From Candidatus Pandoraea novymonadis (GTDB lineage Bacteria; Pseudomonadota; Gammaproteobacteria; Burkholderiales; Burkholderiaceae), in the NCBI RefSeq assembly GCF_003004665.1, contig NZ_MUHY01000001.1:372001-436000 (forward strand): 64,000 bases of DNA, written 5' to 3'. Every line of letters starts with the position of its first letter. Positions within the stretch are counted from its first letter, which is position 1. Below the pieces are notes generated by a model, which did no database searches, was not told where the DNA came from, and saw nothing but the letters and a program-made list of their open reading frames with translations. This document shows positions 7,903 to 53,676 of the stretch, one piece after another. Made by a program: the position numbers and the translations under genes.

Positions 7903-8907
7903 ATGCGGAATAAGACTCTCACGCAATATCTCATTGAGCAACAGCGAGAGTTCAACAGCATCCCACCTACGCTTCGCTTCCTTATCGAGGTTTTTGCTTG
8001 CTCATGTCAGTCGATTAGCAATATCGTTTCCAAAGGTGCACTAGGGGGAGTACTCGGCATTGCTGGCAGCAAAAATATACAAGGCGAAACTCAAAAGAAA
8101 CTAGATATCATCTCCAACGAAATTTTGATCAAAGCTAACGAATGGGGGGGGCATCTCGCAGCCATAGCTTCAGAAGAAATGGAAAATATTTTTCATATTC
8201 CAAATCGATTTCCTAAAGGCGAGTACCTGATGATGTTTGATCCACTCGATGGTTCTTCAAACATAGATGTAAATATATCTATCGGCACCATCTTCTCCGT
8301 ACTGCGCTGCCCAAAGGAAGTGACACAACCAAGCGAGAAGGACTTCTTACAAGCTGGTACAGAGCAAGTGGCTGCAGGCTATGCAGTGTATGGTCCACAA
8401 ACAGACTTTGTTCTGACAACAGGCCACGGTGTAAATTGTTTCACACTCGACCGTGAAATAGGCTCATGGGTACTTAGCCAAGAAAATATCCGAATTCCGG
8501 AAGAGACGCAACAATTCGCTATCAATGCATCGAATTCACGACATTGGTATCCGCCTGTACAACGGTACATCGATGAAATTCTAGCTGGCCAGGATGGTGT
8601 GCGTGGCAAAAACTTTAATATGCGCTGGGTTGGATCGATGGTCGCTGACGTGCATCGCATTATAAATCATGGTGGAATTTTCATATATCCAGCAGACAAA
8701 CGTGAGCCAAACAAGCCCGGTAAGCTACGACTAATGTATGAGGCCAATCCAATCAGCTTCATCGTAGAACAAGCAGGTGGCTCAGCAACTAACGGAAGTC
8801 AACGTATTCTTGATCTTCAACCAATAGAACTGCACGAGCGTGTTGCCGTATTTATTGGATCAAAGAATGAAGTTGAACGAGTGACACGCTACCACATCGA
8901 TATATAG
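7903..8907 (+). CDS. fbp: Fructose-1,6-bisphosphatase class 1
   Basis: Hydrolyses fructose 1,6-bisphosphate to fructose 6-phosphate in gluconeogenesis and the pentose-phosphate cycle. The 334-residue length is standard. The metal-binding signature DPLDGSSN lies at residues 113-120, preceded by EEMEN (91-95, usually EE), and the C-terminal substrate motif appears as [22 protein letters not shown] good GGAGG is located seven bases before the ATG. It follows pyrB by 113 bases and is read in the same direction. Confidence 0.95.
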
Positions 8908-8958
8908 GAATTAGCTGGCTAAGTATGAAATATCATCAAAATTTTTTAGATAAAGTTA

Positions 8959-8987
8959 GTGACAACATGTCAACAGAAAAGTATTAT
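8959..8987 (+). promoter_or_regulatory. Predicted sigma-70 promoter of tRNA-Thr
   Basis: GTGACA (8959-8964) and TATTAT (8982-8987) are separated by exactly 17 bases, and the -10 box ends 16 bases before the mature tRNA 5' end. One mismatch in each hexamer relative to TTGACA/TATAAT. Confidence 0.65.
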
Positions 8988-9003
8988 TCTTCCTCTTCGC
9001 ATA

Positions 9004-9079
9004 GCCGGAGTAGCTCAATTGGTAGAGCAGCTCATTCGTAATGAGAAGGTCGGAGGTTCAATTCCTCTCTCCGGCACCA
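9004..9079 (+). tRNA. tRNA-Thr (anticodon CGT)
   Basis: A 76-base cloverleaf with encoded CCA. Acceptor arms GCCGGAG / CTCCGGC pair fully. The D stem GCTC/GAGC, anticodon stem GCTCA/TGAGA (first pair mismatched, G-A), loop TTCGTAA and T arm GGAGG-TTCAATT-CCTCT are all visible. Anticodon CGT reads ACG. The sequence closely resembles the Burkholderia tRNA-Thr with the same anticodon. Confidence 0.97.
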
Positions 9080-9700
9080 GAAGTTCATTTTTGGTAATTA
9101 TGCACCCAAAGAGAAGCATGGGAACGGCGATCGTGAAACACCTATTCCTATCTGGAGAAACAGAGTAGCTAGTCTGGATTCTGTTTCGAAAAAAATCAGA
9201 CTAGAAAAATAAGATGAACTACTCGGTCATATATGCATTTTCAGATTGAAGCCCAGTTCTGGTAGAAACGTCGTTTATAAAATATTCGTTTTACATATAT
9301 GATATAGCGCAAAAATGGCTTTTTTGCATTTTAATATCAAGTTATTTAAAGTTATTTATTCTTGAACGTTTTGGAATGTTATTTCATACGAAAATGTTCT
9401 TTATTTGACGTAGTAAGTATGATCAAAATTTCAGTTAAATATTGAGATAATTTTAATCAAGCGATTATATTTTTATATTGATCACTTCATCGATCTACCA
9501 AGTATTCTTCGATTTTTCTTTCTGAGTATTTCGCATAGACGATTTCTATAAATTATTTATAATAATCACCATACAGGTGTTTTAATCTCTAAAAAATAAA
9601 GTGTATTTTTTGATTCTATAGATACAGAAATCCCATATGGTCATGCGGATGACGTCGCATAGACGATCGAAAATCCCCAAAGGAAAGGATCCTCCATAGA
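9080..9700. other. Long AT-rich region upstream of the biotin operon
   Basis: About 620 bases with no recognised gene. It contains interleaved inverted repeats just after the tRNA (9157-9204), a 7-bp hairpin GCAAAAA/TTTTTGC at 9309-9327, and two exact copies of the 13-mer TCGCATAGACGAT at 9531-9543 and 9655-9667. The second copy is 34 bases before the P450 start. The near-palindrome TTATTTATAA at 9553-9562 lies between the copies. The operon promoter should be here but was not resolved. Confidence 0.45.
9157..9204. repeat. Interleaved inverted repeats downstream of tRNA-Thr
   Basis: GAAACAG (9157-9163) pairs with CTGTTTC (9181-9187), and CTAGTCTG (9169-9176) pairs with CAGACTAG (9197-9204). 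The pairs cross one another, so in RNA they would be mutually exclusive hairpins or a pseudoknot. The second stem is not followed by T residues on the plus strand, but on the minus strand the sequence beyond its arm is T-rich. Confidence 0.45.
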
Positions 9701-10978
9701 ATGAATCTCATCACAGGCACTAAGGTACATTCGCATCCTCTTAATGAATCATGGGAAGAAGCTCCTGTTTGGAGCGAAGTATATTGCAAGGGTGCATGGG
9801 TATTGAGTAGCTATCGTGATGTTGCCGCGGCCCTGCGCGACCCGCGATTTTCTGTAGCCCGTGCGGCACGCTGGGTCAACAGCAGCATTGATCCAACCAA
9901 AATCGCTGATCAACATCAGCGTCAAGATAAGAATGCATTGCGTGAATTCAAGCGTCTCCTCTCTCGCTCTCTGCTATTTATTGACGGTCATGCTCATATT
10001 CGACTACGTCGCGCAATTGCCGGCGAGTTTAACAGTACTGCTTTGCAGAAGCGAGCTCCCAGAATTTCTGGGATTGTGGATCAACTTATCAAAAATATTA
10101 TTTCTAAAGCGACACTAGATTCAACTGGTAGACAGACGATCCATTTCGACTATATCAGCGAGTTTGCCCAACCGATTCCTGCATTAGTAATTGCTGACTT
10201 GATGGGCGTTACTCCAGAGATTCAATCACAATTTATAAAGTCAGCAAGCAGCATTGCCACTTTCATCGGAAGTCCTATACCAACGATAGAACAAGCCTTT
10301 GCTGCACAGGAAGCTTTAGTAAAAATACGTGACTACTTCAACCAGATGCTGAATCAACCCAACTTACTAGATAGTGAAAGCATAACTGCCAAGCTTTTGA
10401 AAAAAAAACAAAAAGGTCAGATTTCAACAGTTGAGATGTTAGCTCAATCCTGCACTTTACTCTTTGCTGGTTATGAAACGACTCGTCATCTTCTTGGGAA
10501 TGGAATGCTGGCTTTACTTCGTCACCCAGCGCAATGGAAATCATTACAGAATTCACCGGAGCTCCTACCAAGGGCGTTGCGAGAATTGTTGCGTTACGAT
10601 AGCCCAATCCAATACACTGGGCGCCGGCTACGGCAGGATGTCTCTATCCAAGGATGCCTTCTACGCAAAGGACAACTTGCCATCTTAGATATTGCATCAG
10701 CTAATCGTGATCCAAGATGCTTCATTTCACCAAATCGACTAGATATCAACCGCGATGAAAGAAATCATCTGTCGTTTGGTTATGGTCCTCACGCCTGCGT
10801 TGGTGCCACACTCACTTATATGGAAGCTAACATTGCTTTCCAAAGTTTAATGAAAGCTCTTCCTCGTCTTCAGCTCACTTCTGATAAGCCGCTATGGCAA
10901 AGCAACAAGGCATACCACGGGTTAACATCACTTCCACTGACTTGTGTTTTAACACCTCAAATATCCTTAGCTTCCTAA
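9701..10978 (+). CDS. Cytochrome P450 heading the biotin operon (possible BioI-like role)
   Basis: A soluble 425-residue P450 with no N-terminal membrane segment. Diagnostic motifs: I-helix oxygen-activation AGYETT (256-261), K-helix ELLR (Glu295-Arg298), and the heme loop FGYGPHACVG (359-368) with the cysteinate ligand Cys366. It ends 27 bases before bioF, which has its own ribosome site, so it is almost certainly co-transcribed with bioF-bioA-bioD. In Bacillus the P450 BioI cleaves acyl-ACP to pimeloyl-ACP, the acyl substrate of BioF; a similar job is inferred here from position only. The redox partner is unknown. AGGAAAGG lies rather far (about 14 bases) from the chosen ATG. An unrelated oxidation is possible. 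Confidence 0.85.
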   Translation: MNLITGTKVHSHPLNESWEEAPVWSEVYCKGAWVLSSYRDVAAALRDPRFSVARAARWVNSSIDPTKIADQHQRQDKNALREFKRLLSRSLLFIDGHAHIRLRRAIAGEFNSTALQKRAPRISGIVDQLIKNIISKATLDSTGRQTIHFDYISEFAQPIPALVIADLMGVTPEIQSQFIKSASSIATFIGSPIPTIEQAFAAQEALVKIRDYFNQMLNQPNLLDSESITAKLLKKKQKGQISTVEMLAQSCTLLFAGYETTRHLLGNGMLALLRHPAQWKSLQNSPELLPRALRELLRYDSPIQYTGRRLRQDVSIQGCLLRKGQLAILDIASANRDPRCFISPNRLDINRDERNHLSFGYGPHACVGATLTYMEANIAFQSLMKALPRLQLTSDKPLWQSNKAYHGLTSLPLTCVLTPQISLAS

Positions 10979-11005
10979 TAAAGGATTTATTAGAGGAGAA
11001 TTGCT

Positions 11006-12172
11006 ATGAATGATTTTCAGGCAATGCTCATGCGTATGGAGTCACAATGTTTGTTACGCACACGTCGCATCATTGAAGGCCCACAGAACCCTTCTTTACG
11101 TGTCAATAATCAATCCTTTCTTTCATTTTGTAGCAATGACTATCTCGGCCTAGCAAATCATCCTAACCTAATTGCAGCGATAATAACCGGTATGTCTGAA
11201 TTCGGTGTAGGTAGCTCATCCTCAGCCCTTATTTGTGGACATACAAAGGCTCATGAAGATTTGGAGCAAACATTAGCTGCATTTCTCGAGATACCAAGGG
11301 TCATTTATTTTTCAAACGGATACATGGCTAATCTTGGTGTAATCAGTGCACTTGTGGGGCCTGGAGATACAATATTCTGCGACCGTCTGAATCATGCTTC
11401 CTTAATTGATGGAGCCCGACTTTCCCGTGCTGAATTCAAGGTATATGCGCACAGTGATGTTTTCAAGCTAGAAAAGCTTCTACAGAAATGCAAAAGTCCT
11501 AGTAAACTTGTGGTAACCGATGCCGTTTTTAGTATGGATGGAGATATCGCTCATTTAGCAGAATTGATTACTATTTGCGAGCGTTACGATGCATGGTTAC
11601 TCGTCGATGATGCTCACGGTTTTGGTGTTCTTGGCCCGCATGGGAAGGGCAGCCTGCATCACTTTGGGTTGAAATCGGAGCAGCTTCTTTACATGGGTAC
11701 GCTAGGGAAAGCAGCAGGGGTTGCTGGTGCATTTGTTGCAGCCAATCGACATATCTCAGATTGGCTTCTTCAGCGAGCGCGTACTTATATGTACACCACA
11801 TCTAACCCTGCGCTTCTCGCCACAGCAGCATCTGCGGCACTGCCTCTAATTTACGAAGAGGAATGGCGACGTATTAGGCTCCGGACGTTAGGCAAAAAAT
11901 TACAAAAAGTCTTGTATGGGCTGCCATGGCCATTAATACATTCGAAAACTGCCATCCACCCAATAATCATAGGCGATAATCAGACCACCCAAACTTTAGC
12001 AAGCATGCTGAAAAATCAAGGCATTTGGGTACCTGCAATCTGTCCACCCACTGTCCCTGATGGAACAGCACGTTTACGTATTTCCCTCAGTGCATTGCAT
12101 ACAGAGGACGATGTGATATGCCTAGCAAAGGCACTGATGAAGATCGCAACTGTCCTAAAGGTTGAGCGATAA
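11006..12172 (+). CDS. bioF: 8-amino-7-oxononanoate synthase BioF
   Basis: A PLP enzyme that condenses pimeloyl-ACP (or -CoA) with L-alanine to give KAPA, the first biotin-ring step. The 388 residues have the alpha-oxoamine synthase pattern: SNDYLGLA (43-50), the glycine-rich GSSSSALICGHT (69-80), DDAHGFGVLG (201-210), and the PLP lysine in TLGKAAGVAG (Lys235). AGAGGAGAA lies seven bases before the ATG. The stop is one base short of the bioA ATG, indicating translational coupling. The sequence shows no break or missing residue. Confidence 0.96.
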   Translation: MNDFQAMLMRMESQCLLRTRRIIEGPQNPSLRVNNQSFLSFCSNDYLGLANHPNLIAAIITGMSEFGVGSSSSALICGHTKAHEDLEQTLAAFLEIPRVIYFSNGYMANLGVISALVGPGDTIFCDRLNHASLIDGARLSRAEFKVYAHSDVFKLEKLLQKCKSPSKLVVTDAVFSMDGDIAHLAELITICERYDAWLLVDDAHGFGVLGPHGKGSLHHFGLKSEQLLYMGTLGKAAGVAGAFVAANRHISDWLLQRARTYMYTTSNPALLATAASAALPLIYEEEWRRIRLRTLGKKLQKVLYGLPWPLIHSKTAIHPIIIGDNQTTQTLASMLKNQGIWVPAICPPTVPDGTARLRISLSALHTEDDVICLAKALMKIATVLKVER

Positions 12173-12173
12173 T

Positions 12174-13517
12174 ATGAACACCTCAAAATCTTCTGCTCTC
12201 ATTCTACGTAGTTTGCGTAGTGTTTGGCATCCCTGCACACAGATGCAACATCATGAAACTATGCCACTCATTCCTATCGTCCGTGGGAAAGGCGCATGGC
12301 TCTATGATGCTGATGGTCGGCGATATCTGGATGCAATCAGCTCATGGTGGGTCAATCTATTCGGTCATGCTAATGATCGGATCAATAACTCGATCAAGGA
12401 GCAACTCGATTATCTGGAACATGTCATGCTAGCTGGTTTTACTCACGAGCCAGTTGTCACTCTGTCAGAAAAACTCTCAGCACTGACCAGCAATGCCTTA
12501 GGGCACTGCTTTTATGCGTCAGATGGTGCTTCCGCCGTTGAGATCTCGCTCAAAATGAGCGCACATGCCTGGCGCAACATAGGATATTCGAAGAAGCAGG
12601 AATTTGTCTGTCTACAGGGCAGTTACCACGGAGAAACGCTTGGTGCACTGGGAATCACCGATACCTCATTGTTTCGAGAGGCCTATGAGCCGCTAATTCG
12701 AGCTGCTCATGTCGTCCCCTCACCTGATTCACGTCAGGCTCGTGACGGCCAAACACCTAATGATGTTCTTCAACATGCGCTAGATACACTTCAATCTCTT
12801 TTAGAAAGACGTGCAAACCACATTGCTGCAGTAATTGTAGAGCCAATGGTCATGTGTGCTAATTCTATGGCAATGTATGATGCTTCATACCTACAAGGAT
12901 TACGTTCTTTGTGTAATCGTTATCATGTCCACCTCATCGCTGATGAAATCGCTGTCGGATGTGGACGAACAGGGAAATTTTTTGCCTGCGAGCAAGCCGG
13001 TATTTGGCCAGATTTGCTTTGTCTATCTAAAGGTATCAGTGGAGGTTATCTTCCGCTATCCTTAGTCATGGCAAGCGCTGATATATATAGCGCATTCTAC
13101 GATACAGATTTACATCGTGGTTTTTTACATTCCCATTCCTACACAGGTAATCCACTAGCATGCCGCGCGGCCCTTGCAACGCTATCCATATTTGAAGAAG
13201 ACAACATCATCGAACGCAACCGTGTCTTAGCAGAATATATTAACGTTGCACTACAGCCCCTCGCCCAACATCCAGACTTTCATCATTTCCGCCAGCAGGG
13301 TATGATTTGGGCATGTGATGCGATCATCAACGATTCAGAAAATACCAGAACGTTTGCTCACCGGTTTTATACAGAGGCAACTAAGCAGGAACTCCTCATT
13401 CGTCCAATTCGGAAAACCGTTTACCTCATGCCTCCGTACATTCTAGATACCGAAGAAATTGATATCCTTGCATCGCGCATAAAGCGAGTCGCTGATAATG
13501 TCATGTATGGGGTTTAA
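12174..13517 (+). CDS. bioA: Adenosylmethionine--8-amino-7-oxononanoate transaminase BioA
   Basis: Transfers the amino group of S-adenosylmethionine to KAPA to form DAPA. The product has 447 residues from the ATG at 12174, chosen over an in-frame TTG at 12162 inside bioF. Seen: WHPCTQMQ (18-25), the substrate-site ISSWW (55-59), YHGETLGALG (151-160), IADEIAVGCGRTG (255-267) and the PLP lysine in LSKGISGGYLPLS (Lys286), all typical of Burkholderia-type BioA. It is the third gene of the P450-bioF-bioA-bioD unit; two bases separate its stop from bioD. Confidence 0.96.
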   Translation: MNTSKSSALILRSLRSVWHPCTQMQHHETMPLIPIVRGKGAWLYDADGRRYLDAISSWWVNLFGHANDRINNSIKEQLDYLEHVMLAGFTHEPVVTLSEKLSALTSNALGHCFYASDGASAVEISLKMSAHAWRNIGYSKKQEFVCLQGSYHGETLGALGITDTSLFREAYEPLIRAAHVVPSPDSRQARDGQTPNDVLQHALDTLQSLLERRANHIAAVIVEPMVMCANSMAMYDASYLQGLRSLCNRYHVHLIADEIAVGCGRTGKFFACEQAGIWPDLLCLSKGISGGYLPLSLVMASADIYSAFYDTDLHRGFLHSHSYTGNPLACRAALATLSIFEEDNIIERNRVLAEYINVALQPLAQHPDFHHFRQQGMIWACDAIINDSENTRTFAHRFYTEATKQELLIRPIRKTVYLMPPYILDTEEIDILASRIKRVADNVMYGV

Positions 13518-13519
13518 CC

Positions 13520-14197
13520 ATGTCTTCTAAGTATAAAGGTTATTTTGTCGTAGGCACGGACACAGGAGTAGGTAAAACATTAGTCAGTACAGGGCTCCTC
13601 CATCACTTCGCGAATAAAGGATATCGTGCTGTAGGTATGAAACCAGTAGCATCAGGCGCCGTTTTTAATTCCGGAGCTTGGCAAAATGACGACGTAACGG
13701 CTTTGCGAGAAGCTTCTAATGTAGATGTGCCAATCGCCTTAAATAATCCCTATCTGCTACGCGAACCCACGGCCCCACATATCGCAGCAGCCACAGAAGG
13801 GATTCAAATCAAAGTTAATCACATACAACATTGCTATCGTGCTCTTCAGAAATATGCTGACTCAGTTATTGTGGAGGGTATTGGCGGATTCCTTGTTCCG
13901 CTCAATGAAAACGTTCACATGGGTCATCTCGTCACGATACTTGAATTACCTGTTATTTTGGTCGTTGGGATTCGGTTAGGATGTATTAATCATACTTTAC
14001 TAACCACCGAGGCAATTTCCGCCAGAGGCATCAGCATGGTCGGCTGGATTGCTAATATTGTCGATGCCGAAATGAGACAGATTGACGCCACAATCAATTG
14101 TCTAAAAAAACGCATTCAATCACCAATGCTTGGATACATTCCTTGGCTATCTAGCTCAAAAGCGACTAATGTTGCCCAATTTATTAGGTTACCGTAA
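13520..14197 (+). CDS. bioD: Dethiobiotin synthetase BioD
   Basis: ATP-dependent closure of the ureido ring of DAPA to dethiobiotin. The 225-residue protein begins with the P-loop GTDTGVGKT (12-20), then has GMKPVASGA (the substrate/phosphate lysine) and VEGIGGFLVPL, the family's second conserved block. It is the last gene of the operon. BioB, needed for the final sulphur insertion, does not follow as it does in many Burkholderia, so it must be elsewhere or absent. Confidence 0.95.
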   Translation: MSSKYKGYFVVGTDTGVGKTLVSTGLLHHFANKGYRAVGMKPVASGAVFNSGAWQNDDVTALREASNVDVPIALNNPYLLREPTAPHIAAATEGIQIKVNHIQHCYRALQKYADSVIVEGIGGFLVPLNENVHMGHLVTILELPVILVVGIRLGCINHTLLTTEAISARGISMVGWIANIVDAEMRQIDATINCLKKRIQSPMLGYIPWLSSSKATNVAQFIRLP

Positions 14198-14338
14198 TAA
14201 AAATTTTGCAGTAAAAAGTAACGCTAATATGATGAAATTAGCTGCCAATGTGTTTATTAGGTGCATATGAGGCAAACGATAATGCCAATCCGACCTACAG
14301 GCTATCTAAGCCTACATAAATTTTCAACAGATAAACTC

Positions 14339-15100
14339 CTAGATTTTAGTGAAAATCTCGCCGTGAGACGCAGATCGTGAACCTGGCATTGGTAGATTGC
14401 TACTACCACGATAAGCAAAAACCACGGAAAATTTTGTATTTTTACCTTCATTTCGGCTTGCTTCATGAAACAAACCACTGTGGAAAAGGACAACATCGCC
14501 TTGTGAAAGTTCTACTTGGATACTATGTTCAAAAAGTTTCCGATTCTCCGGAACTTCAGGCCGTAGAAAATCAAGCGCATCAAGTTGATAAGGAGCAATC
14601 ATCTCATGATGTGAACCTGGGATGAAACGCAATGCCCCATTGGTAGCAGTCTCAGTGCCAAGTGCGAGCCACACGGACACAAGATCGTTGCGATTGAAAA
14701 ACCAGTATCTAATGTCACGATGCCACCCTGTCGCCGTACCGAAATTAGGATGTTTAGTCATTACACAATTATGATGTGCAAGTGTTAGAACAACATCTTC
14801 TAAAAAGATTTGTTCGAGGGACTGAATAAGATCAGGATGAGTGGCCCAATGACGTAGATTATCGCTCCGATCATAAGCTTTAAGTAATCGCCGCACAGTT
14901 AGCCCGCCTTCTGCTTGTCGAGAATTCGGTGCACCCTCATAGCCTAGATCTGCTTCATATTCCAATGGTCCTCGACTTTGTTCTAGCTCCTGTCTTACAT
15001 CTGACAAAATATCTTCACAGTAATCCACCGAAGCATAGCGTGGCAAAATCAAGAAGCCTTTATCTTTAAACTCGGCGAGTTGGTGTGCGGTAAGCGCCAT
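14339..15100 (-). CDS. Phytanoyl-CoA dioxygenase (PhyH) family protein
   Basis: A 253-residue Fe(II)/2-oxoglutarate-dependent oxygenase. The iron triad is visible as WHRD (His127, Asp129) and a distal histidine in HSGLFHEASRN (His207 or His212), with the nearby arginine expected to bind 2-oxoglutarate. A closely similar protein is common in Burkholderia; its substrate is not known. It is convergent with bioD, 141 bases away. The ATG at 15100 (MALTAHQLAE) is preferred over an upstream start at 15151 because the family begins with this segment. A link with biotin synthesis is not shown. Confidence 0.88.
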   Translation of the reverse strand: MALTAHQLAEFKDKGFLILPRYASVDYCEDILSDVRQELEQSRGPLEYEADLGYEGAPNSRQAEGGLTVRRLLKAYDRSDNLRHWATHPDLIQSLEQIFLEDVVLTLAHHNCVMTKHPNFGTATGWHRDIRYWFFNRNDLVSVWLALGTETATNGALRFIPGSHHEMIAPYQLDALDFLRPEVPENRKLFEHSIQVELSQGDVVLFHSGLFHEASRNEGKNTKFSVVFAYRGSSNLPMPGSRSASHGEIFTKI

Positions 15101-15796
15101 AATAGACGATAAGTGTCGTATAGAAAAAGTACAAAATAGCACCCTCTGCAACGGAAACGGCTTATCATAAATCTGACTGAGGTCTGTAACGGTCTATAAT
15201 GCCTTGGAACACAAATCAATTTGTACATTGCAGAAAGAACCACCTAAACTTACAATATCAGAAAGGGATTGTCGAGGAAAAAATTGATTGCGAAAATCGT
15301 CAGTTTAAAGAAAAATCATGTAATTTTAGTAGTTCGCTCCCAGAAACGTACACTCGACCAAGCACCGCTTAGAAGGCAGTTAATTATTTAGTATGCTTAC
15401 ACTGGGCCATCAAAAAAAGTGATAAAATTCTGCAAAGTGGAAAACATAAGCAAGATATTATTTTAATAAATAAATTAAATATTAAGAATTAATAAAAATT
15501 CATAGATATGAATTACCAAAATTAGAAAATGGAGCTATCAGCTCCATTTTGGGTATTTAAGCGAATACCTAGCACTATTAAAATTTTATCCATTTACATC
15601 TCAAACACATCACAGATTTTCTAAAAATAATTAGCATATCCCCACTACCCTTACCCGGGTAGCTGAATAAGCTCAGTGTATAAGCAAGTGGTCAATTGTA
15701 CGAATAGAGAAGGAATACACCAATTACTCCCCTGGTATGCCCCTTAGTTAAATGATTTAAATTTAGGTATGCTTAAGATTGCTCCTACCAAAATCA
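15101..15796. other. Intergenic region containing an orphan terminator
   Basis: About 700 bases with no gene recognised in any frame. A perfect terminator-like hairpin stands at 15526-15550, more than 400 bases from the PhyH start and 246 bases from the tatD stop, perhaps left over from a lost gene. Confidence 0.45.
15526..15550. terminator. Orphan bidirectional terminator hairpin
   Basis: A perfect 11-bp stem, AAAATGGAGCT (15526-15536) and AGCTCCATTTT (15540-15550), with the three-base loop ATC. The A and T ends of the stem make it terminator-like on either strand. No gene ends close to it. Confidence 0.6.
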
Positions 15797-16570
15797 TCAA
15801 ACAGAAAAAAGTGCATGAAAATTATCAGAAGTTGCTTCTGCAATTGCCTCTACTGATTCACCACGCAATTTTGCGATAAATTCCGCGACATATTTAACAT
15901 AACTCGGTTGATTTAGCTTACCCCGATATGGGACTGGTGCGAGGTAAGGTGAATCCGTCTCGATCAACATTTTATTCAGCGGTACACGACGCACAACGTG
16001 CGTCAATTCTCCTGCATTCTTGAATGTGATAATACCTGAAAAGGAAATGTAAAAATTCTCTGCCAGTACCGCAGCAGCAAATTCCCAGCTTTCGGTAAAA
16101 CAATGTACAACTCCTCCGACTTCGCTCGCTTTTTCCTCGCGCATTAACCGTAGAGTATCTTGAGCTGCTGAACGAGTGTGAATAATCAGTGGTTTTTTTG
16201 CAATTTTCGCCGCCTGAATATGACGGCGAAAACGATTACGCTGCCATTCCATAGCCTCAATAGAATGGCTCTCCAAGCGGTAATAATCAAGCCCAGTTTC
16301 ACCGATAGCAACCACTTTTGGCATATTAGAAAGACGAATTAAATCGTTGACCGATGGCTCAAGCATATCCTTATGATCAGGATGTACACCAACAGATGCA
16401 TATATATTCTCATGTGAGGAGGCAATTGCCAGTACATCCGGTAGTGTTAATAAATCAACGGAAACACACAATGCATGACTCACCTGAGCCTCTCGCATTT
16501 TAGCTAGCAACTCAGGCATCTGAGTCGCTAGCTCTTGAAAATTAAGGTGACAGTGCGAATCAATAAACAT
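15797..16570 (-). CDS. tatD: TatD-family metal-dependent deoxyribonuclease/hydrolase (YcfH-like)
   Basis: A 257-residue TIM-barrel hydrolase. Metal ligands appear in DSHCHL (His6, His8), GETGLDYY (Glu of the conserved GEtGLD motif), HTRSA, VVHCFTES and ETDSPYLAP. The nearest E. coli relative is YcfH, which likewise sits after holB and tmk. The family has 3'-5' DNase activity and, for some members, D-aminoacyl-tRNA deacylase-like roles; the exact role here is not determined. It is the last gene of the mltG-tmk-holB-tatD set, separated from holB by 214 bases in which no pilZ-like gene was recognised. Confidence 0.92.
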   Translation of the reverse strand: MFIDSHCHLNFQELATQMPELLAKMREAQVSHALCVSVDLLTLPDVLAIASSHENIYASVGVHPDHKDMLEPSVNDLIRLSNMPKVVAIGETGLDYYRLESHSIEAMEWQRNRFRRHIQAAKIAKKPLIIHTRSAAQDTLRLMREEKASEVGGVVHCFTESWEFAAAVLAENFYISFSGIITFKNAGELTHVVRRVPLNKMLIETDSPYLAPVPYRGKLNQPSYVKYVAEFIAKLRGESVEAIAEATSDNFHALFSV

Positions 16571-51408: not shown

Positions 51409-52611
51409 TTACTGAGCTGAGTTGACCGACAGTTTTTCATTGTTAAACTAACAAATTCATTCTCTAGTTTTAGCCAGCTAGGCCTATCCCCTAATGGGAT
51501 AGGCCCATTTTAATTATCGAACAGGTTGCGCGACTCAAGTCGACTAAGAAAACTCTAGAACGGAGTATTCATCAAAAAAAATTACTAAGAGATAGAGATT
51601 TTTCGTAAGGTCAGAACCAGAAAATATGCTCACTATGCTACAACTACCGAGCCTTTGAATTAAAATTTCAATAAATGCTTGTACTGTGAAAGTATCGAGC
51701 ACCTTGAACAACTTCACCTCCAGTTTAATCTCTCTTCCATCGATAATGGCAAATTCAGTGTCAAGATAGAAAATCAACGATAAACCACCTAAATGGAATC
51801 ACGGCTACAAGCAAAATAGTAAATGGCCTTGGAAACGGCCGCATTCACAACAACGCCAATAACACGATTAAAAGTAAATTTTTCAATGCACTGCTATCCT
51901 GACTTTCATCATGAATATGAAGAAAAAATACTTGATTTTACTAACTTCTTCGTCTGTCACTCATCACTTTCCTTGTAAAAATTAAAGGATCTGAACACCA
52001 TAACTGCGATACGGAATCAGTAAATTTGAATAGACGCAAGATGTCCTAGCACAACTCGTTAGCAAGATTATTGTCACTAATCAAGTAACAAAAAGTTACA
52101 GACATGAACAGCAATAATCTCATAATAATGACCCATACAGCATGGTGCTTTTCTGAGTTCGATTCCTGTTAGAAAAGAGATTTTTCAGCAAACGCTACGC
52201 TCAAAGTCTATAGAACACGTAATAAGCATAATGAACTACCCTAGGTTAGGCATCTCATTAATCAAAATAGCATTTTCCAAATTTGAAATCTGGATCGAGA
52301 ATAATCGTTCTTTAGGATATGACTAAAATACACGCTTGACCATCGATAAGCAGCCACTCCGGTAGAATAAGAGATTTAACCAGATATCTGAGTAAATTGC
52401 ACAAGAAATGCTAGCTTCGAGAAGAAAGTAAGCTTCGATGGTACGAAACCCCGTAGCGATTCGTAATACTGTCAAAAAACAAGAAGACATGTACCGGAAC
52501 ATCAAGCACCACATACCACACGTCGACAAAAAGGCCCTCATAGATAAATACAGCTTACTAAAAGCTTTTTAGCTATTGTTTCGTCTAATTTTTCATTTTT
52601 TGGATCATAGT
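51409..52611. other. Long region between the permease and the flavin reductase
   Basis: About 1.2 kb with a strong terminator at 51481-51512. Two small open frames are present but not recognised: 51544-51777 on the minus strand (77 codons, begins MIFYLDTEF) and 52438-52572 on the plus strand (44 codons, basic, MVRNPVAIRN). Neither is supported by homology recall. A tRNA T-arm-like GAGTTCGATTCCTG near 52155 has no cloverleaf around it. Probably decayed sequence. Confidence 0.4.
51481..51512 (+). terminator. Strong intrinsic terminator after the permease gene
   Basis: GGCCTATCCC (51481-51490), loop CTAAT, GGGATAGGCC (51496-51505): a perfect 10-bp GC-rich stem followed by CATTTTAA. This is the strongest terminator in the window. 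Confidence 0.85.
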
Positions 52612-53676
52612 ATGGTTTACAACATCACCCTTGTCCCCAGTGGACGTCAATTTCAGACTGAATCCGGCGAACTGGTACTATCTGCTGCCATACGCCATGG
52701 CATCAACCTACCTTATGGTTGTAAAAATGGTGGTTGCGGCTCATGCAAAGCCAAGGTTATCGATGGTGAAATAGTGCATAGCACCCACTCTCATGCAGCG
52801 CTCACAAACGAAGAAAAAATGGAAGGACTTACTCTGCTGTGCTGCGCACATGCCAAAAGTGATCTAACCATTCAAAGTCGAGAAATTAAAATAGCAGATG
52901 ATATTCGCATTAAACGCCTACCATGTCGTGTTTCAACCCTTGAACGTGTGGTAGATGACGTAATAGTTATGCGTTTACAGCTACCAGCTAACGAACGATT
53001 ACAATATCTAGCTGGCCAATATATCGAATTCATCCTTAAGGATGGTCAACGGCGCAGCTACTCTATAGCGACTCCTCCTCACGAAGAAGGTGAATTGGAA
53101 CTACACCTACGTCATTTTCCTGGCGGACGATTTACGGATTATGTCTTCCAAACGATGAAGGAACGCGAAATTCTTAGATTTGAAGGACCACTTGGTACTT
53201 TTTTCCTACGGGAAGAGAGTGAAAAGCCGATTATACTCGTTGCTTCTGGAACAGGTTTCGCACCAATAAAAGCCATAGTCAAGCATACAATTCATAAGCA
53301 AATAACTCGCCCGATAACATTCTACTGGGGTGCACATACACGTAAGGACCTTTACCAATATGAACTGGCAAAACAATGGGTGGATGACATGCCAAATTTC
53401 CAGTTCGTCCCAGTCCTATCAAACGTCACTCTCGAAGACCACTGGAATGGTCGTACTGGTTTCGTACATCATGCGGTAATGAAAGATCTGCCTGATCTAT
53501 CGAATTATGAAGTTTATGCTTGCGGTGCTCCTATAATGGTCGACTCCGCTCGACGAGACTTTATCCAAAAAAATGGCTTACCTAAGGAATCATTTTTCGC
53601 CGATGCCTTCACAACAGAAGCAGATATCTCCACTAGCCTTACTTATATAAATAAAGTTGAGCCCAACATCAGTTAG
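52612..53676 (+). CDS. CDP-6-deoxy-delta-3,4-glucoseen reductase-like 2Fe-2S/FAD oxidoreductase
   Basis: A 354-residue electron-transfer flavoprotein. Residues 1-90 form a plant-type ferredoxin domain with Cys37, Cys42, Cys45 and Cys77/78 (CKNGGCGSC). Then come an FAD-binding domain with RSYSIATPP and an NAD-binding domain with ASGTGFAPIKAI and CGAPIMVDSARRDF. In Burkholderia the same protein is annotated as CDP-6-deoxy-delta-3,4-glucoseen reductase and is found near ubiD. The natural acceptor is unknown; flavin or ubiquinone-related reduction are both possible. The ATG at 52612 is chosen over one at 52576 on the family's start. Confidence 0.88.
   Translation: MVYNITLVPSGRQFQTESGELVLSAAIRHGINLPYGCKNGGCGSCKAKVIDGEIVHSTHSHAALTNEEKMEGLTLLCCAHAKSDLTIQSREIKIADDIRIKRLPCRVSTLERVVDDVIVMRLQLPANERLQYLAGQYIEFILKDGQRRSYSIATPPHEEGELELHLRHFPGGRFTDYVFQTMKEREILRFEGPLGTFFLREESEKPIILVASGTGFAPIKAIVKHTIHKQITRPITFYWGAHTRKDLYQYELAKQWVDDMPNFQFVPVLSNVTLEDHWNGRTGFVHHAVMKDLPDLSNYEVYACGAPIMVDSARRDFIQKNGLPKESFFADAFTTEADISTSLTYINKVEPNIS

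Follow-up and report, generated by a model that had tools for sequence, protein, structure and literature searches.

A cytochrome P450 at the head of a foreign biotin operon in Candidatus Pandoraea novymonadis and its biotin-linked relatives in Burkholderiales

Results

The window analysed here is a stretch of 64,000 nucleotides from the endosymbiont Candidatus Pandoraea novymonadis (G000:C1:372001-436000, G000 being a genome of 1,157,259 bases in six contigs and C1 a contig of 844,906 bases). In it, a cytochrome P450 gene encoding 425 residues (9701..10978) is followed on the same (+) strand by bioF (11006..12172), by bioA, for adenosylmethionine-8-amino-7-oxononanoate transaminase (12174..13517), and by bioD, for dethiobiotin synthase (13520..14197). 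The four genes, separated by 27, 1 and 2 bases, are presumably co-transcribed; the bioA start was taken at the ATG at 12174, the open reading frame (ORF) list having a TTG at 12162. A preliminary description of this DNA had used the same order and spacing to propose a P450-dependent source of the seven-carbon (C7) unit of biotin, and both are confirmed by the ORF coordinates and by family matches to PF00067 (80.9 bits against a cut-off of 22.8), TIGR00858 (bioF, 457.7 against 426.45), TIGR00508 (bioA, 518.6 against 405) and TIGR00347 (bioD, 164.2 against 83.3). No NCBIfam P450 family matched the P450 over its cut-off. The P450 motifs are intact, as had been claimed: E295-R298 form the ExxR motif, AGYETT occupies 256-261 and the heme motif FGYGPHACVG carries Cys366. 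The best PDB matches of the BioF protein were 8-amino-7-oxononanoate synthases, the Escherichia coli enzyme among them (1bs0, which we take to be E. coli BioF).

The operon lies behind a tRNA-Thr gene (CGT; 9004..9079, +), the last native gene ahead of the foreign block, and the intervening AT-rich leader (9080..9700, no strand assigned) has 31% GC. Matches to promoters and terminators around the operon were no more numerous than in shuffled sequence. Neither bioB nor bioC nor bioH adjoins it, in agreement with the preliminary description; BioB and a BioC ortholog are encoded on another contig. A search of the endosymbiont genome with the window P450 at E 0.001 returned only the protein itself.

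We scanned genome contigs with a four-row P450 alignment, which yielded 62 loci; the same scan with the single window P450 gave no named relatives. A bio gene was counted as linked when at least 150 aligned residues lay within 400 bases on the same strand, and two partial loci (L098, L099) were set aside. By this rule a bio gene adjoins the P450 in 35 of 42 loci of one clade, which includes the window protein, and in 0 of 18 P450 loci outside it, loci of one genus or genome not being independent (L061/L063, L073/L074 and L078/L097 are each a pair from one genome). Since the linkage recurs in genomes found by a search with the P450 only, it is more than chance, and the tie between this P450 and biotin synthesis is borne out. 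The gene orders in the clade include A-F-D-B-P450 (12 loci, one of them the broken L097), P450-F-A-D-B (8), B-P450-F-A-D (4) and A-F-D-P450 (4). The clade is monophyletic with 100% support in the Shimodaira-Hasegawa-like approximate likelihood ratio test (SH-aLRT; 39 rows), and its profile scores range from 439.6 to 718.2 bits inside versus at most 360.5 outside, with the broken L097 copy (135.5) set aside. The window P450 retains 66 of 70 positions that are invariant in 31 other members, the same count giving 0 to 6 departures for other rows. When 300 Burkholderiales genomes were drawn evenly, a match at 1e-80 was present in 29, and five exceeded 400 bits (G043, G000, G213, G252 and G312; in G213 the order is bioB-P450-bioF-bioA-bioD); therefore, the clade is widespread yet far from universal. 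The expectation that such a P450 would be unusual for a Burkholderia-group symbiont has to be given up, for the family is spread over Burkholderiales and the operon was acquired horizontally.

This biotin-linked family is little known. We found no report of a biotin-operon P450 in Burkholderiales among the papers listed by searches of the open-licence PubMed Central literature, supplements lying outside that scope, and none of a P450 in Ca. Pandoraea novymonadis, the term being absent from the main texts of PMC5632650 and PMC8406214. Biotin goes unmentioned in the sections available of a survey of proteobacterial P450s (PMC9148083).

Individual loci of the clade have features of their own. In a Pandoraea metagenome-assembled genome (G023; locus L033, 7990-10274), a second bioB overlaps the P450 gene by 4 bases and adjoins an ORF that reads, by eye, like a biotin-dependent carboxylase subunit; the native bioA-F-D-B is also present, and the P450 is a second gain within the genus Pandoraea. 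In the alphaproteobacterium Mesorhizobium norvegicum (L050, 7980-9515), a clade P450 (46% identity) has a bioF fragment behind it and, upstream, ORF fragments that look like panC by eye. In two Cupriavidus loci (L052 and L055, 7755-12845), no bio genes accompany the clade P450, which is convergent with an ORF of 1199 residues whose beginning resembles biotin carboxylase (label by eye). Polaromonas sp. P2-4 carries two bio clusters with a P450 in one chromosome (L097 and L078); both P450s are broken in frame, and the bio genes of L097 are likewise broken.

Several comparisons point to a foreign origin of the operon. When our genome and 60 relatives were searched at 1e-30, the P450 had matches in 16 of the 61, and besides the endosymbiont itself only G043 (Collimonas-like), G035 and G023 exceeded 40% identity. 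The closest relatives of the window genes are those of Herbaspirillum autotrophicum (P450 57%, BioF 71%, BioA 72%, BioD 54%), which are arranged bioB-P450-bioF-bioA-bioD. Each of the 24 further Pandoraea examined (genomes of 4.4 to 6.5 Mb, assumed on size grounds to be free-living) has bioA (61-65%) followed by bioF (47-51%), in the order bioA-bioF-bioD-bioB in the two stretches read through; the window BioD is 47 and 50% identical to that of two Pandoraea over most of its length and 46-52% in pieces. In BioF and BioA trees, built after 18 of 63 rows had been dropped as near-identical or spare, the window proteins fall among those of P450-bioFAD operons: the partner of BioF is H. autotrophicum (support 93), and BioA shares with this species a four-row group whose branching is unresolved (support 99). 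Grouping the window with 13 Pandoraea rows was rejected by the approximately unbiased (AU) test (p 8.8e-111 for BioF, 5.8e-6 for BioA). The P450 tree agrees, with SH-aLRT supports of 94 for the window with H. autotrophicum and 100 for the four-row group.

BioB and BioC have native affinities. The endosymbiont BioB (G000:C2:42318-43229, 404 bits) groups with two Pandoraea rows (76% identity; support 94), and the BioC ortholog (G000:C2:72272-73036) is 59-66% identical to those of eight Pandoraea, next to genes that read by eye as trmL and gpsA. The pyrB-fbp-tRNA-Thr(CGT) order is common to three other Pandoraea, in which the operon was not found in the 14-16 kb examined behind the tRNA. The operon thus appears to be a horizontally acquired block of Oxalobacteraceae type, with native bioB and bioC kept. 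A whole-genome search with the window bioA at 1e-60 found only itself, therefore no native bioA remains. Pandoraea bioF and bioD queries against 139 kb of the endosymbiont's sequence, including 14 kb around bioB and thus less than the whole genome, found only the window genes, and the native copies have probably been lost. In codon-position GC the operon closely resembles pyrB and fbp, so it has been resident long enough to adopt the composition of the genome.

Neither the stretch from fbp to the P450 nor the DNA after bioD yielded a relic of a donor bioB. Site-specific integration at the tRNA was considered and set aside: with up to 3 mismatches allowed, the 3' end of the tRNA does not recur in the window, and 8900-15800 has no convincing flanking repeat. 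Directly behind the operon lies a PhyH-type dioxygenase gene (14339-15151, -). A tblastn search at 1e-5 matched it in none of the loci compared, apart from the window DNA in L131, and it was therefore left out of the acquired block.

We compared the P450 with Bacillus subtilis BioI (CYP107H1; 3ejb, 3ejd, 3eje), with which it shares the P450 fold, the heme-thiolate, ExxR and I-helix (AGxETT) motifs and a gene placed in a biotin operon. The order bioA-F-D-B-P450 of 12 of the 42 clade loci also equals that of the Bacillus operon, presumably bioW-A-F-D-B-I, minus bioW. A 32-row family profile run against 177,635 PDB sequences put BioI (3ejb) first with 319.7 bits, followed by PksS (316.0) and 8yhn (312.8), and a four-row profile gave BioI 289.3 bits versus 288.4 for PksS. 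The window P450 was modelled with AlphaFold2 without templates (predicted local distance difference test 81.8, predicted template modelling score 0.84). Foldseek searches with this model gave the same neighbour, with BioI chains at ranks 1-10, 12 and 13 and a root mean square deviation (rmsd) of 3.2-3.7. Similarly, VIA-align placed three BioI entries first (Z 43.4-43.5, rmsd 2.3-2.5, 370-375 residues aligned), ahead of the next entry (Z 42.0, rmsd 2.5, 366 aligned). BioI is therefore the nearest solved structure to the clade by family profile and by two structure comparisons, although by small margins.

The two enzymes also differ. Identity is 29%, the clade hosts are Gram-negative, their operon has a TIGR00858-type BioF downstream, and a sister relation is unsupported: the grouping of the clade with BioI was absent from a quick tree and, when constrained with a single BioI sequence, had an AU p of 0.438. 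The phylogeny thus neither joined the clade to BioI nor rejected the union. Under the nomenclature of the superfamily, more than 40% identity to the type is expected within one CYP family, and the window P450 lies below this for the family of BioI. At 29% identity it is therefore not to be named BioI or CYP107H, and the likeness described here does not show it to be a BioI.

As in the BioC-BioH pathway of E. coli, the endosymbiont has a BioC ortholog (166.8 bits against a cut-off of 184.95, the next best match scoring 44), and the BioC model matched at 1e-15 in 39 of 39 genomes searched. A simple anti-correlation between presence of the P450 and of BioC was accordingly discarded; only motif I for S-adenosylmethionine (SAM) separated the genomes. 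It was read in 38 genomes, 31 with the clade P450 and seven Pandoraea without it, and a further locus (L233) gave no ORF. All seven Pandoraea have LDxGCG. Among the 31 carriers, 14 have lost motif I together with the acidic motif after it but keep the C-terminal FExxYGHA, and the last glycine is changed in three (GCS in the endosymbiont, GCA in two of Thiomonas type). The 14 belong to Polaromonas, Rhodoferax, Limnohabitans, Variovorax, Azohydromonas and unclassified relatives (L184-L189, L226-L232, L234). With the SAM motif lost, the BioC route looks dead in these genomes, where the degenerate ortholog is probably a conserved pseudo-methyltransferase. All 14 have the P450 beside bio genes, and 13 have a whole P450, both copies of Polaromonas P2-4 being broken. 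The P450 would be the only C7 candidate in sight there, unless BioE, BioZ or BioW, which were outside our searches, act in these genomes. The carriers read from Oxalobacteraceae, Alcaligenaceae and Cupriavidus have an intact BioC. A trmL-like gene (by eye) adjoins BioC in seven of eight relatives' loci, including four of Comamonadaceae or Thiomonas type, as well as in another two Pandoraea; the eighth locus, L172, shows none in the stretch examined.

In further difference from E. coli, BioH exceeded the TIGR01738 cut-off in 0 of 33 genomes, a search that left out BioG, BioJ, BioK and BioV. The BioH model had one weak match in the endosymbiont (E 2.1e-5) versus 16-31 in each of eight Pandoraea relatives. 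With PF12697, three endosymbiont proteins came up at E up to 1: a YqiA-like esterase, a YheT-like hydrolase (YheT being the name that we assume for it) and a small hydrolase that fits no curated name, all under NCBIfam cut-offs. The BioC route may therefore lack an esterase or use one of these three. Free-living Pandoraea have neither BioH over the cut-off nor the P450, so the absence of BioH says little. The combination of an intact bioC with an esterase, which the preliminary description had set against its own proposal, is thus half present: a BioC ortholog whose SAM motif is nearly intact is encoded elsewhere in the genome, and no BioH over the cut-off was found.

Three PF00175 reductases are encoded in the endosymbiont genome, one of them a Fer2-FAD-NAD(P) reductase (52576..53676, +) in the window. 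Two of the three are closest to ferredoxin-NADP reductase, under its cut-off. Such reductases could supply electrons to the P450.

Discussion

Context and likeness indicate that the window P450 probably works like BioI, cutting an acyl-acyl carrier protein (acyl-ACP) to yield pimeloyl-ACP. In the mechanism we propose, the operon just after tRNA-Thr would stand in for native bioA, bioF and bioD, native bioB and bioC having stayed. A ferredoxin or flavodoxin together with an NADP reductase would feed the P450, which would oxidise two adjacent carbons of a long acyl-ACP so that the chain is cut to pimeloyl-ACP. BioF would join this product with alanine, and BioA, BioD and the distant BioB would complete biotin. 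Pimeloyl-ACP is accepted by E. coli BioF (PMC11089781). The BioI-like proposal of the preliminary description gains support from the recurrent bio linkage, from BioI as nearest solved structure and from the degenerate BioC in 14 of 31 carriers; the near-intact BioC ortholog of the endosymbiont speaks against it.

A number of other observations also weigh against this assignment. With the single window protein as query, PksS (172.5 bits) comes ahead of BioI (170.1); identity to the 12 BioI chains is 28-29% over 386-391 columns; and groupings of the clade with PksS (AU p 0.371) or 8yhn (0.483) were not rejected either. By the linkage rule used, seven of the 42 clade loci have no adjacent bio gene (L049, L050, L052, L055, L057, L070 and L071), although a piece of bioB, truncated where the contig ends, is present in L070 and the bioF fragment in L050, and the outermost clade genomes, G252 and G312, show none in the stretches examined. 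Of 63 positions that do not vary among 21 strong or intact orthologs, 60 are unchanged in the endosymbiont BioC, its motif I (LDAGCSTG) having one change, G to S, and LDxGCG is intact in 14 of 31 P450 carriers; the BioC route may therefore still run. BioC also scores weakly in some members of the order-wide draw that lack the clade P450, so BioC decay does not track the P450.

The leading alternative, although we consider it unlikely, is that the P450 is an auxiliary or back-up C7 source that came with bioFAD and adds little, much like BioI in B. subtilis, with BioC and an unrecognised esterase making most of the pimeloyl-ACP. The near-intact endosymbiont BioC, the intact BioC of Oxalobacteraceae, Alcaligenaceae and Cupriavidus carriers and three alpha/beta hydrolases that could de-esterify agree with it, as does the dispensability of BioI in B. 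subtilis (PMC7645780, PMC12915131). Against this, a reduced genome of 1.16 Mb has retained the P450 with its conserved positions, and SAM motif I is missing from the BioC of 14 carriers.

A quite improbable alternative is that the P450 oxidises some other substrate (a biotin catabolite, a vitamer or a lipid), profiting from co-regulation and yielding no C7 unit; three Cupriavidus loci with the P450 but without bio genes, two of them next to the biotin carboxylase-like ORF, would suit it, but the repeated position beside bioA, bioF, bioD or bioB and the likeness to BioI argue otherwise. Least probable of all is that the P450 acts after BioC, replacing BioH by oxidative removal of the methyl group from pimeloyl-ACP methyl ester: the lack of BioH over the cut-off and the 14 carriers with an intact SAM motif fit, but BioC should not bind SAM in 14 other carriers, so no methyl ester would arise there, the nearest solved structure is an acyl-chain cleaver, and free-living Pandoraea also lack BioH over the cut-off, yet have no P450.

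If the P450 does make pimeloyl-ACP, it would resemble BioE, which likewise performs an oxidative cut of long acyl-ACP to pimeloyl-ACP and is also reported from Burkholderiaceae (PMC12915131); BioE is, however, a diiron oxygenase, a non-heme ferritin-like enzyme unrelated to P450. In passages on BioI, the literature treats the enzyme as confined to Bacillus or a few microbes and dispensable there (PMC12915131, PMC7645780, PMC11089781): it is called 'unique to B. subtilis' (PMC12915131) and, as a dispensable enzyme whose product B. subtilis BioF does not use, 'an enigma' (PMC7645780). The P450 family described here, placed in biotin operons of genomes many of which have a dead-looking BioC, offers a setting where BioI-type chemistry could be essential, and that chemistry thereby becomes testable in culturable strains.

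Horizontally acquired biotin operons are known from the endosymbionts Wolbachia, Cardinium and Megaera. The present case is likewise a foreign biotin operon in an intracellular symbiont, but here a P450 is carried, only bioF, bioA and bioD come with it, and the symbiont's own bioB is retained. On a wider scale, P450-made pimeloyl-ACP might be the main entry to biotin in a large part of Burkholderiales. BioC would then have been replaced in Comamonadaceae and Azohydromonas and kept there as a conserved pseudo-methyltransferase, the P450 would move with bio genes between genera and have reached Mesorhizobium and a Pandoraea relative, and the endosymbiont would have discarded its own bioA, bioF and bioD. 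We put this picture forward tentatively and, taken as a whole, would lean slightly against it.

Ca. Pandoraea novymonadis has been called prototrophic for all vitamins (Kostygov et al., PMC5632650), and its trypanosomatid host is described as able to make vitamin B7 thanks to the endosymbiont (PMC8406214). If the proposed route is true, a vitamin-supplying endosymbiont of a protist would have rebuilt its biotin pathway with a foreign operon, and molecular oxygen would be a new need of that pathway.

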